Shown: one piece after another, positions 35,776-56,371 of the stretch
How the letters are laid out: every line of letters starts with the position of its first letter
Position numbering within the stretch: position 1 is the stretch's first letter
Assembly: GCF_014229965.1 (NCBI RefSeq)
Contig: NZ_JABGBW010000008.1
Coordinates: 1 to 56,632 of the forward strand
DNA from: Peptostreptococcus canis
Lineage (GTDB): Bacteria; Bacillota; Clostridia; Peptostreptococcales; Peptostreptococcaceae
Reading direction: 5' to 3'
DNA length: 56,632 nucleotides
Made by a program: the position numbers and the translations under genes
Notes under the pieces: generated by a model
The model's input: only the letters and a program-made list of their open reading frames with translations
Database searches by the model: none
Told to the model about the DNA's origin: nothing

Positions 35776-37221
35776 TTAATATGCCTTAGCAAATATTACC
35801 ATGTGATCTGCTTTTTCTCCACTGTAGAAACAAGTATCTCCCAAGTTTTCCTGTTCAAAAGGAATTACTCTTATTGTAGCTCCTGTTAATTCTTTGATTT
35901 TTGCTTCGTTTTCAGCATTTTCTTTCCACATTACCTTGGCAAATCCCTTTTTGTTTTCTATAATATCTACAAATTCGTCCATATTGTTAGCTACATATAT
36001 TCTTTCATCCCTATATTTCTTTGCCTTACTAAATAAATTGTTCTGAATATCGTCTAGTAGCTCGACCACTGATTCGGCAATGCCATCTAATGATAATTCA
36101 CTCTTAGTAAGTTCATCTCTTCTAAATGCAAGTGCTTGATTTTTTTCAATATCCTTAGGACCTATTTCAATTCTTACCGGTATACCTTTCATTTCTGAGT
36201 CATTAAACTTATATCCCGGACTATAGTTGTCTCTATCATCCACTTCTACAGAAATTCCTTTAGATTTGATTTCAGAAGCAATTTTGTCTACTACTTCCAT
36301 TACTCCACCTTTATTTGCAGCAATTGGAACTATTACGACCTGAGTTGGAGCCATTTTTGGAGGCAGTACAAGCCCTCTATTGTCGGAATGAACCATTATA
36401 AGTCCACCTATAAGTCTGGTAGATATTCCCCAGGAAGTATGGTATGGATAAGCTATATTTCCTTCTCTATCGGAGAAAGTAATATCAAATGCCTTAGTAA
36501 AATGCTGTCCCAGGAAATGAGATGTACCTGACTGTAGAGCTTTACCGTCATGCATCATTGCTTCTATTGTATAAGTAGAATCCGCACCTGCAAATTTTTC
36601 GCTTTCAGATTTCTGACCGTCAATTACAGGTATCGCCATCAAGTCTTCAGCAACTTTTTTATATATTTCCAACTGTTGCAAAGTTTCTTTCATGGCTTCT
36701 TCAGCAGTTTCATGTATAGTATGCCCTTCCTGCCATAAGAATTCAGATGTTCTTAAGAAAGGTCTGGTAGTTTTTTCCCATCTTACAACTGAGTTCCACT
36801 GATTATATAAAAATGGTAATTGTCTATATGAGTTTAGCCATTTAGCATACATAGTACATATAATTGTCTCGGATGTAGGTCTGACTGCTAATCTTTCTTC
36901 TAAAGTTTTGTTTCCTCCCTGAGTTACCCAGGCAACTTCAGGAGCAAAACCTTCAACGTGCTCGGCTTCTTTAGTTAATAAACTTTCAGGTATTAATAGC
37001 GGGAAATATACATTTTTATGTCCTGTTTCTTTAAATAAGTTATCCGCATAATCTCTTATCTTTTCCCATAGAGCAAAACCATAAGGTCTGATTACCATAA
37101 AGCCTTTAATAGGTGCATAGTCAACTAACTCAGTTTTAGTTATTACATCAGTATACCACTGTGCAAAATCGTCTTCCATTTTCGTAATGTCTTCAACAAA
37201 TTGTTTTTCATTCTTCGCCAT
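35776..37221 (-). CDS. proS: Prolyl-tRNA synthetase, archaeal/eukaryotic type
   Basis: Charges tRNA-Pro with proline. At 481 residues, without the ~180-residue editing insertion of the common bacterial form, it belongs to the short archaeal/eukaryotic-type ProRS found in some anaerobes and parasites. Class II motif 2 is seen as RPFLRTSEFLWQEGHT, the mid-catalytic HFLGQHFTKAF segment is present, and motif 3 is GGLIMVHSDNRGLVLPP. The C-terminal domain ends KADHMVIFAKAY, with a terminal aromatic as in relatives. GGAGG precedes the ATG. A T-box leader (37277-37507) controls it. Confidence 0.96.
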   Translation of the reverse strand: MAKNEKQFVEDITKMEDDFAQWYTDVITKTELVDYAPIKGFMVIRPYGFALWEKIRDYADNLFKETGHKNVYFPLLIPESLLTKEAEHVEGFAPEVAWVTQGGNKTLEERLAVRPTSETIICTMYAKWLNSYRQLPFLYNQWNSVVRWEKTTRPFLRTSEFLWQEGHTIHETAEEAMKETLQQLEIYKKVAEDLMAIPVIDGQKSESEKFAGADSTYTIEAMMHDGKALQSGTSHFLGQHFTKAFDITFSDREGNIAYPYHTSWGISTRLIGGLIMVHSDNRGLVLPPKMAPTQVVIVPIAANKGGVMEVVDKIASEIKSKGISVEVDDRDNYSPGYKFNDSEMKGIPVRIEIGPKDIEKNQALAFRRDELTKSELSLDGIAESVVELLDDIQNNLFSKAKKYRDERIYVANNMDEFVDIIENKKGFAKVMWKENAENEAKIKELTGATIRVIPFEQENLGDTCFYSGEKADHMVIFAKAY

Positions 37222-37276: not shown

Positions 37277-37507
37277 AGCCTTTCATCTCTTAAAAGAGAC
37301 GAAAGGCTGTTAGTTTCCGCGGTACCACTCTCATTAGCTATAGTTTTAGCTCACTCAAAAGAATATAACGGTTCAAACCGTGAGAATTTTTACCTCCCCA
37401 AGCTAAAAGGCTGGTTCGCTAGAGTCGATTTGGAATCTCTCACCACCGATTCCTCTCTGAAAAATCTAATCAAGTTACTTTTCCTTTATTACTGCCACTA
37501 TTAATAT
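37277..37507 (-). promoter_or_regulatory. T-box riboswitch (proline) upstream of proS
   Basis: The minus-strand leader has stem I (CAGAGAGG, GGTGGTGAGAGATTCC), a specifier region GCGAACCAGCC with candidate proline codon CCA at 37414-37412, the T-box core GAGTGGTACCGCGG (about 37317-37330) and an intrinsic terminator AGCCTTTCGTCTCTT/AAGAGATGAAAGGCT (37277-37308) with T-rich 3' end. Uncharged tRNA-Pro(UGG) should stabilise the antiterminator and turn on proS. Confidence 0.95.
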
Positions 37508-40639: not shown

Positions 40640-42565
40640 TTATTTGTTTGCTTCAGCAATTATCTTTTCGCTTGCACTTGCAGGTACTTCAGCATAACTA
40701 TCGAATTCCATTTCAAAATATCCTCTACCTTGTGTCATGGATCTTAGGTCAATTGCATATTTGAATGTTTCTCCTTGTGGAGCCAGAGCTTCCAAAATCT
40801 GTTTGCCTTTTCCATTGGATTCCATACCTAAGATTTTACCTCTTCTCTTGTTCATATCTCCCATTACATCTCCCATATATTCTTCAGGAATTGTAATTGT
40901 AAGTTTCATTACTGGTTCAAGAAGTACGGGTTTTGCTTCTTCCATACCCTTTTTAAAGGCTATTGATGCCGCCATCTTAAAAGCCATTTCTGAGGAATCG
41001 ACATCATGATAAGAACCATCGTATAGAACGGCCTTAATATTTGTCACAGGATATCCGGCAAGAACCCCCTTAAGCATAGAATCTTTCAATCCCTTTTCTA
41101 CTGCCGGTACATAAGATTTTGGTACAGAACCCCCGAATAGTTCTTCTGAAAAATCAAATTCATCATCACTTCTGGAGAATCTTATTTTTACATGACCATA
41201 TTGCCCATGTCCTCCCGATTGTTTTTTATGTTTACCTTCAACATCAGAGCTGCCTTTTATCGTTTCTCTATAAGCAACTTTAAGGTCATTTAAATCTACA
41301 TCCAATCCGAATTTGTCTTTCATCTTATTTATCAGTGTTTTAATGTGAAGCTCACCCTGTCCTCCTATTAACGCCTGATTTGTCTCGATGTTTCTGAAAT
41401 AATCTAGTGTAGGATCCTCTCCGACTAGTCTGGAAATCACGTTTGCCATTTTATCTTCATCATTTTTGTTCTTTGGAGATACAGCATAATAAATCTGTGG
41501 TTTAGGGAATACTATTTCAAAATCGGCTTCTCCATCTCTCTGAGTGGATATTGTATCTCCCGTTGCCAAACCGGTTACTTTTGTGACTACGATTATGTCG
41601 CCTGCATAAGCTTTTTCAAGCTCTATCAACTCTCCGCCTCTAATCGTATATATATTTGATATTTTTTCTTTATTCGAAGTTCTAAAGTTAAAAAGTTCTG
41701 TATCCTTGGAAATTGACCCTTGAGTTATTTTTATATATGATATTTTTCCAATGAATGGATCTATAAAAGTTTTGAATACCGTTCCTTTAAAAGGACTATC
41801 AATATCTGTGTATGAAGGATCTATATAATTTTCCAAAGATGCTAATATTTCAGCAGTTCCGATATTATTTATTGTAGAACCGGAAATAACGGGTATTATA
41901 TCTCCTCTTTTGATTCCTATAGTAATACCATTTCTAATTTCATCTTCAGTAAGTTCTTCACCTTCAAAAAATTTTTCCAAATAGTTATCGTCTGTTTCAG
42001 CTATCAATTCCATTAATGCATCATATGCCTGCTTTGCCTGAATTCTAAATTCTTCGTCCAATCCTTCATAGTTTTCAAAAACATTGTGCAATTTCACAAA
42101 TTTTCCATCCTTGAATTCCGGAGAAATCATTGGCACTATCTTATTTTCAAATTTATTGTTAAGCATTTCGATTACATCTTTGTATCTTGCTTTTTCATTA
42201 TCTATTTTATTAATGAACATTATTTTAGGAATACCTTCAGTAAGTTCTAGAGCTTTTTCTGTACCTACTTGAACAGGATCAGTAGCATCAATTACTATTA
42301 TTGCAGCATCACTTGCTGATAATGCAGATACCATATCACCTGAAAAATCAGTATAGCCCGGAGTATCTAAAAAATTAAATTTAAATCCCTCATACTCAAC
42401 CGGCATAAGCCCCATGCTATATGTCATCTGTACATTGTTACTTAATTTGGGAATCTTATTTACATTAGCTGCATGAGCAATTGTTTCCAAAAGATTCGTT
42501 TTACCACAGCCACTGTGTCCCAAAACGGAAATATTTCTTATTTTTTCACTTTTATAGACTTTCAT
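40640..42565 (-). CDS. EF-G paralogue (translation-factor GTPase) with shortened switch I
   Basis: The 641-residue product keeps EF-G's domain order: G domain with VLGHSGCGKT (14-23), DTPGYTDF and NKID, then domains II-V with [11 protein letters not shown] and [14 protein letters not shown]. It is about 45 residues shorter than fusA at 528-2594. The region between the P-loop and G3 lacks the ERGIT motif and is about 15 residues shorter than in the usual second EF-G of Firmicutes; only QMTYS remains. Such paralogues are widespread in clostridia, but their function is not settled (recycling, stress or ribosome protection). It is monocistronic with its own terminator. A tetracycline-resistance protein is unlikely on sequence. 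Confidence 0.9.
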   Translation of the reverse strand: MKVYKSEKIRNISVLGHSGCGKTNLLETIAHAANVNKIPKLSNNVQMTYSMGLMPVEYEGFKFNFLDTPGYTDFSGDMVSALSASDAAIIVIDATDPVQVGTEKALELTEGIPKIMFINKIDNEKARYKDVIEMLNNKFENKIVPMISPEFKDGKFVKLHNVFENYEGLDEEFRIQAKQAYDALMELIAETDDNYLEKFFEGEELTEDEIRNGITIGIKRGDIIPVISGSTINNIGTAEILASLENYIDPSYTDIDSPFKGTVFKTFIDPFIGKISYIKITQGSISKDTELFNFRTSNKEKISNIYTIRGGELIELEKAYAGDIIVVTKVTGLATGDTISTQRDGEADFEIVFPKPQIYYAVSPKNKNDEDKMANVISRLVGEDPTLDYFRNIETNQALIGGQGELHIKTLINKMKDKFGLDVDLNDLKVAYRETIKGSSDVEGKHKKQSGGHGQYGHVKIRFSRSDDEFDFSEELFGGSVPKSYVPAVEKGLKDSMLKGVLAGYPVTNIKAVLYDGSYHDVDSSEMAFKMAASIAFKKGMEEAKPVLLEPVMKLTITIPEEYMGDVMGDMNKRRGKILGMESNGKGKQILEALAPQGETFKYAIDLRSMTQGRGYFEMEFDSYAEVPASASEKIIAEANK

Positions 42566-55558: not shown

Positions 55559-55588
55559 TTGACTTTTTGAGTAAAAATATAATATATT
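55559..55588 (+). promoter_or_regulatory. Promoter of the selenocysteine peroxiredoxin gene
   Basis: TTGACT, 18-nt spacer, TATATT, about 64 bp before the ATG; the -10 could also be an overlapping TATAAT with a shorter spacer. Confidence 0.6.
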
Positions 55589-55651
55589 TGTATTATCTAT
55601 AATAATAATTGGGTATATAGATATTAACTATAAAAATTGGAGGTTATTAAT

Positions 55652-56371
55652 ATGGCAGAAGAAAAAAAACCATTTGGCTGTGGCTCAAAAAGCACTCCAA
55701 AAGAAAATATTGATAAAGTAGTTGAAGAAAAGAATATTATTGAAAAAGAGAAGGGAGTAAAGAAAATGTTACAAATAGGAAGACCAGCTCCGGATTTCGA
55801 AGTTCCGGCATATCACAATGGAGAATTTACAAATGTTAAACTTAGCGATTATAAAGGAAAGTGGGTTTTACTTTGCTTTTACCCAGGAGACTTTACATTT
55901 GTCTGAGCTACTGAAGTATCAGCAGTTGCTGATAGATATAAAGAATTCCAAGAGCTTGGAGTTGAAGTTATCTCAATGAGCGTTGATAGCGTATTTGTTC
56001 ATAAAGTATGGAATGATACTGAACTTTCTAAAATGGTAGATGGAGGAATTCCATATAAAATGGGTTCTGATGCCGGCGGAGAAGTAGGTAAAATATATGG
56101 AATTTATGATGAAGATGCCAAAGTAGATACAAGAGGTAGATTTATAATAGATCCTGATGGAATTGTTCAAGCATTTGAAGTACTAACTCCTCCTGTTGGA
56201 AGAAATGTGTCTGAAGCTTTAAGGCAAGTACAGGCATATCAACATGTAAGAAAACATGGTGGAAGTGAAGTTACTCCTTCAGGCTGGCAACCTGGAAAGA
56301 AAACATTGAAACCTGGTCCAGATTTGGTTGCTAATGTTTGGAAACACTGGACAGTAAAAGATGCAAAGTAG
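55652..56371 (+). CDS. Selenocysteine-containing peroxiredoxin (in-frame UGA at codon 85)
   Basis: A thiol/selenol peroxidase of the AhpC-type peroxiredoxin family, 239 codons with UGA (55904-55906) read as Sec. The frame is identical on both sides: GDFTFV before the UGA and [14 protein letters not shown] after, so UGA stands exactly where relatives have the peroxidatic Cys in FTFVCPTE. A SECIS-like hairpin follows. The ATG at 55652 follows TTGGAGG by 8 nt; TTG at 55637 is part of that site. The N-terminus carries an extra ~37 residues with Cys10 (FGCGS) ahead of the usual [13 protein letters not shown] start. The C-terminal motif reads EVTPSGW, where typical 2-Cys enzymes have EVCPA, so the resolving Cys is missing. 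The Sec machinery must lie outside the window. Confidence 0.93.
55904..55934 (+). promoter_or_regulatory. UGA codon with bacterial SECIS-like hairpin
   Basis: Ten bases after the UGA, TATCAGC and GCTGATA (55917-55923, 55928-55934) form a perfect 7-bp stem with loop AGTT, extendable to 8 bp. Position and a G/U-bearing apical loop fit a bacterial SECIS recognised by SelB. Confidence 0.8.

Follow-up and report, generated by a model that had tools for sequence, protein, structure and literature searches.

Among the closest known systems to the gene described here are the selenoprotein peroxiredoxin annotated as prxU in Peptoclostridium (Eubacterium) acidaminophilum DSM 3953 (WP_084481301.1), and AhpC and the typical 2-Cys peroxiredoxins. 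The 2-Cys enzymes have the same fold and active-site frame but, unlike the protein described here, they carry cysteine in place of selenocysteine (Sec), a proline after it and a C-terminal resolving cysteine, and they lack a cysteine-bearing N-terminal tail. PrxU purified from E. acidaminophilum was reportedly described in 2001 as a protein of 203 residues with selenocysteine at position 47.

We analysed a stretch of 56,632 nucleotides of Peptostreptococcus canis DNA, referred to as the window at its full length, in which a reading frame interrupted by UGA encodes a protein 61% identical to P. acidaminophilum PrxU over query residues 1–238. Judged from the sequence comparisons below, the window gene is very probably prxU and its product a selenoprotein peroxiredoxin, that is, a fresh member of a known selenoprotein family. 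Beyond this assignment, we suggest with a probability of about 0.6 that PrxU genes are two-in-one: a single message might give a tailed and a tail-less selenoperoxidase, the tail cysteine replacing the lost C-terminal resolving cysteine and the ratio of the two starts setting the number of subunits per ring able to resolve oxidized selenium, be it their own or that of a neighbour.

The UGA codon and the capacity to decode it

The features of the gene and its upstream region that bear on this assignment are as follows.

55559..55588, + strand: promoter-like TTGACT-18-TATATT, weak, in AT-rich DNA
55652..56371, + strand: long form of prxU, 239 residues with Sec85 when TGA is translated as U, computed mass 26.6 kDa
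55904..55906, + strand: UGA codon, putatively read as selenocysteine at the peroxidatic position (U85), from the translation and the same codon in relatives
55917..55934, + strand: SECIS-like hairpin UAUCAGC-AGUU-GCUGAUA, 7 bp, G in the loop, 17 nt from UGA to loop

Read from the sequence, the UGA is the sole in-frame interruption of 55652–56371. The first-pass annotation had claimed that one frame across it gives a complete AhpC-type peroxiredoxin, and both flanks indeed match AhpC-TSA separately, with 46 bits before the codon (55652–55903) and 40 bits in the downstream open reading frame (55976–56371). The whole protein scored 396.3 bits with the PrxU model NF040737, an NCBIfam equivalog (cut-off 270), and 191.6 bits with the AhpC equivalog TIGR03137, below the cut-off of 272, in agreement with the earlier view that the gene adds a member rather than a new class. 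An AlphaFold model of the long form, computed from 43 input sequences (the window protein and 42 of the other 81 distinct genes introduced below), had a mean pLDDT of 85.9, with values below 50 for residues 1–32 and of 81–98 per ten-residue block from residue 41; a 2-Cys peroxiredoxin was its best structural match in the comparison with the PDB. The UGA does occupy the position of the catalytic cysteine, as had been noticed, but the motif around it is FTFV-UGA-ATE, with alanine where AhpC has proline, and not the UPTE implied by the wording of the first-pass annotation.

Relatives were collected from 139 loci, of which 128 gave a tblastn match and 97 had U at the site, leaving 82 distinct genes with the window included. 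UGA stands at the identical codon in all 82, and the residues from it onwards read UATE in 65, UPTE in 14 and otherwise in 3. The remaining 31 matches comprised 27 cysteine-containing relatives, all of the CPTE-type AhpC kind, and four loci without a readable motif (L035, L064, L073 and L139). Since 82 distinct genes share the UGA at one codon, it is not a sequencing error.

The hairpin begins 10 nt after the UGA and has 7 bp, much as first described. Bacterial SECIS elements have a G in a small loop, according to PMC1088965, and the window hairpin, lying just after the UGA, likewise has a G in its AGUU loop. With a z-score of −1.96 for the 60-nt fold and six of 200 shuffles equally stable, the window hairpin is only mildly unusual by itself, so that the comparison with relatives carries the weight. 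At least six of its seven pairs are present in 71 of the 82 Sec genes versus none of 24 cysteine homologues; the other 11 Sec genes have fewer than six at this exact place, and a shifted hairpin was seen in five folded tail-less UPTE-type genes (L029, L080, L082, L086 and L138). Among 81 unique sequences, one pair covaries as UA (35), AU (22), CG (7) and GC (6) and a second as AU (57), UA (8) and GC (7); mismatches also occur, each of the seven pairs being present in 67 to 81 of the 81 sequences. For 80 of 82 Sec genes, the fold after the UGA is lower in energy than the average of that gene's synonymous recodings (mean −9.7 vs −6.8), with significance (p 0.05) reached in only 13 of 82 taken singly, and the same test on the cysteine homologues placed 16 of 24 below their mean (−4.1 vs −3.2). 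As far as these alignments and folds indicate, the putative SECIS element is conserved with paired changes.

Between the window gene and that of Peptostreptococcus russellii, the 154 codons after the UGA differ at 10, 4 and 78 sites at codon positions 1, 2 and 3, respectively, a pattern that indicates purifying selection downstream of the UGA. Together with the conservation of the UGA and the hairpin, it argues that the frame after the UGA is translated. A UGA that is a true stop or a misread TGC or TGT, with the two pieces as remnants, is extremely improbable and was dropped: open reading frame calling with a 100-residue cut-off does recover the downstream fragment 55976–56371 alone, but the UGA shared by 82 distinct genes, the conserved hairpin, the selection on downstream codons and the full Sec machinery of the genome contradict it.

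This machinery had been proposed as a check on the selenoprotein reading, and selA, selB, selD and a tRNA-Sec with anticodon UCA were all found in the window genome (2.06 Mb, 100% complete), with selD-selA-selB clustered. The tRNA-Sec model gave three matches above the cut-off, the best of which was confirmed with ARAGORN. The selD gene (L066:11054–12106, minus strand) has a UGA of its own, KAGG-UGA-AAK, at codon 17 from the ATG. The tRNA-Sec is followed by a gene for a 637-residue fusion (L067:9406–11601) of a Dph6-like ATP-pyrophosphatase (about residues 5–187) with a cysteine desulfurase domain, which also matches the selenocysteine lyase model SclA below its cut-off; this fusion possibly serves selenium supply.

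Among nine genomes of the genus, SelA was found in eight and PrxU over its cut-off in two, the single genome without a SelA match (G003) being listed as 100% complete. In a draw of 247 genomes from the order, PrxU was present at E ≤ 1e-70 in 50, and 49 of these exceeded the family cut-off. SelA occurred in 47 of these 50 vs 139 of the 197 others, as compared by eye from the lists (Fisher p = 0.0004, uncorrected for kinship), and the three PrxU genomes without SelA are 63, 79 and 88% complete. A class-wide draw yielded 14 of 391 genomes passing the PrxU cut-off. Sec peroxiredoxins had been described to us as known from some anaerobic Firmicutes; the family is indeed known, but it is not confined to that phylum, the matches listed including records of Deltaproteobacteria, Thermovirga, Calditrichaeota, Neomarinimicrobiota and Acidobacteria. 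The two Peptostreptococcus copies have different neighbourhoods, and a mobile origin of prxU was considered but not adopted; for the genus counts of prxU and SelA, loss and transfer are both possible.

Promoter-like sites such as the one upstream of prxU were seen 16 times in a 1433-base stretch, with 7.9 expected (sd 3.1). Short AT-rich inverted repeats overlap this site and, judged by eye, possibly represent the site of a peroxide regulator. Elsewhere in the window, a T-box leader (37292–37501, minus strand) lies just upstream of the prolyl-tRNA synthetase gene (35776–37221), and two EF-G-type genes occur on the minus strand (528–2594 and 40640–42565), the second a shorter paralogue of 641 residues well under the tetracycline-protection cut-offs. 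The contig end (56545–56632) resembles, by eye, a 5S rRNA gene in reverse orientation; it gave no Rfam match at the gathering threshold, perhaps because it is cut off at the contig end.

The N-terminal cysteine tail and the internal start

The selenoprotein interpretation of the first-pass annotation is thus supported by the machinery, the UGA of 82 genes, the hairpin and the selection on the frame. A conserved cysteine tail and an internal start within the same frame had escaped notice; their elements in the window are given below.

55639..55643, + strand: Shine-Dalgarno GGAGG of the first start (ATG 55652), read from the sequence, anti-Shine-Dalgarno energy −10.0
55679..55681, + strand: codon of the tail cysteine C10 (FGCGSK), the conserved cysteine of the N-terminal extension
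55750..55757, + strand: internal Shine-Dalgarno-like GAAGGGAG, anti-Shine-Dalgarno energy −8.2
55766..55768, + strand: internal ATG (M39), proposed second start, for a short form of 201 residues with Sec47

Of the 82 genes, 70 encode an N-terminal tail in which a cysteine is conserved, mostly within the motif GC-x-RP, and which is followed by an internal start. These tail-bearing genes were chosen by the cysteine motif; a motif-free count, covering the 72 genes whose upstream frame is open for at least 25 codons, found a cysteine 20–45 codons before the core in 70. In most genes, a methionine sits at the junction of tail and core, 46 codons before the Sec codon. The cysteine tail is absent from 11 of the 82 genes and is therefore not essential to the PrxU family.

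We estimated the strength of the internal site by pairing the 16 bases at −20 to −5 with the 16S tail. The count covers 69 of the 70 tail-bearing genes, L046 having no methionine there, and uses whichever methionine is closest to the core. In L134 and L018 the true start probably lies elsewhere; these two genes were retained. The mean over the 69 genes was −10.6 kcal/mol vs −4.9 for synonymous recodings of the same peptides, and 68 of the 69 genes, as well as 33 of 33 groups at 85% identity, fell below their own synonymous mean; 34 genes reached p 0.05 singly and 35 missed it. An energy of −8 was reached at 65 of the 69 internal starts, L018, L126, L132 and L134 being weaker, versus 2.6% of 2350 other internal ATGs in the fetched loci. 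Averaged over 10-mers, the energy peaked (to −9.2) for those starting 21–12 bases before the ATG and ranged from −2.2 to −1.2 further upstream, with a smaller bump (to −4.1) just downstream of the ATG. In a later-fetched set, five of five tail-bearing genes with the ATG had a site of −11.1 or better. The window site, at −8.2 kcal/mol, is moderate and not better than its own recodings (p = 0.52), so that the two-start claim for the window copy rests on its relatives. Taken together, the internal ribosome-binding site and start appear to be kept beyond coding need across the PrxU family.

These internal sites and the upstream starts lead us to think that both starts are used, and the family probably makes a long and a short form. 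In the open-access literature searched, we found no mention of a second start in PrxU.

A reading in which the short form alone counts is quite unlikely; in it, the internal start would be the ancestral start of AhpC, and the frame upstream a leader peptide or a poorly used extension. The AhpC matches do begin at the equivalent place, by eye, and the short form computed for P. acidaminophilum has exactly the 203 residues and Sec47 reportedly given in 2001. Against this, all 70 tail-bearing genes have an upstream start whose Shine-Dalgarno energy is −6 or better, a lenient count in which the best candidate start was taken, and the tail stays in frame and keeps its cysteine mostly within GC-x-RP. 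The Clostridium sticklandii protein is also annotated with Sec84 of 240 residues in PMC3091704.

Use of the long form alone, with the linker and its methionine kept for protein reasons and GGAGG a by-product of Lys-Glu-Glu codons, is rather unlikely as well. The linker is rich in lysine and glutamate, the RefSeq entry for the P. acidaminophilum gene begins at the long start, and the window is among the 35 genes that miss p 0.05 singly; however, the near-uniform shift below the synonymous mean in genes and groups does not fit a coding by-product, and the genes differ in the peptide through which they encode the motif (KEE, KEV, KGE, RRE, KRG and REG). Three genes without the aligned methionine have GTG (L046, L134) or TTG (L146) instead, each preceded by AAGGAGG, suggesting that the start function was kept and the residue was not. 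Furthermore, a site of −8.5 or better precedes the same ATG in 10 of the 11 tail-less genes (L138 has −1.6) and in four of four from the later set. We therefore retain the use of both starts as the preferred reading.

One metagenome-assembled Tissierellia bacterium (L048:2840–2990, identical with L141; genome G619) carries another UGA immediately behind the tail cysteine, MTEELKVSC-UGA-GVEP, with a 6-bp hairpin of loop GGUG 17 nt after it. None of six tail-bearing family relatives shares this codon, which might either encode a second Sec, forming a Cys-Sec pair, or break the long form.

Resolving thiol and proposed mechanism

In the mechanism we envisage, SelB and Sec-tRNA(UCA) would decode UGA 55904 as selenocysteine under the guidance of the hairpin at 55917–55934, and the selenol at residue 85 would reduce peroxides within the predicted AhpC/Prx1-type fold, a chemistry taken over from the family. 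The C-terminal resolving position (the E-V-C-P-A-x-W region) is threonine in the window protein, EVTPSGW. Cysteine occurs there in only three of the 82 genes, L053 and L059, which are also tailed, and L062, which has no tail; L086 has a cysteine two residues beyond the usual position. With the usual resolving cysteine gone, a different thiol has to resolve the selenenic acid; C10 on the flexible tail, thioredoxin directly, or the following cysteine might be candidates.

55874..55876, + strand: codon of C75, 10 residues before Sec, candidate resolving thiol, cysteine in 79 of 82 genes

That C75 rather than the tail C10 is the resolving thiol seems possible, if doubtful. The conservation of this cysteine extends to eight of the 11 tail-less genes, and phenylalanine or valine takes its place in the cysteine-type AhpC matches listed; in the model, however, C75 lies inside a predicted strand (residues 71–76), which we take from the fold to be buried. 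Resolution by the tail cysteine remains our preferred reading. The tail cysteine of the long form could reach the oxidized selenium, while the short form, with Sec47, whose production the family-wide internal ribosome-binding site suggests, would rely on C75, on the tail of a neighbour or on thioredoxin. Tailed and tail-less subunits could thereby coexist and mix in one ring.

The prxU gene of the window is ordinary for its family, and simple open reading frame calling would split or drop such a gene. A conserved internal start, if true, would help to explain how a peroxiredoxin without the usual resolving cysteine completes its cycle, and the two-start layout makes it possible to ask directly whether isoform mixing is a way in which cells tune selenium peroxidases. 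A single start in a database, whichever one it is, may be half the answer.

Comparison with known systems

Outside the window, the closest prxU is found in P. russellii RT-10B (L040); it is 82–85% identical to the window gene, has the same layout of tail and internal start and is identical around the UGA to L011 of the congener genome G004. Its neighbourhood differs: alignment with the window covers the gene plus about 75 nt of upstream sequence (55578–55651) but not the flanking genes, and the only alignment beyond this is to a window gene at a distance of 42 kb, with a 69% match.

P. acidaminophilum prxU (L019), like the window gene, has Sec at the same site, a cysteine tail and an internal ATG, here after AAAAAGGAGG. 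It lies on a megaplasmid with other neighbours, and its internal ribosome-binding site is stronger than that of the window (−11.8 vs −8.2), with p = 0.37 singly against its recodings. Its two computed forms are a short one of 203 residues with Sec47 and a long one of 240 residues with Sec84, the start used by RefSeq being that of the long one. The seleno-peroxiredoxin CLOST_2406 of C. sticklandii, compared through the printed description in PMC3091704 rather than by sequence, fits this long form.
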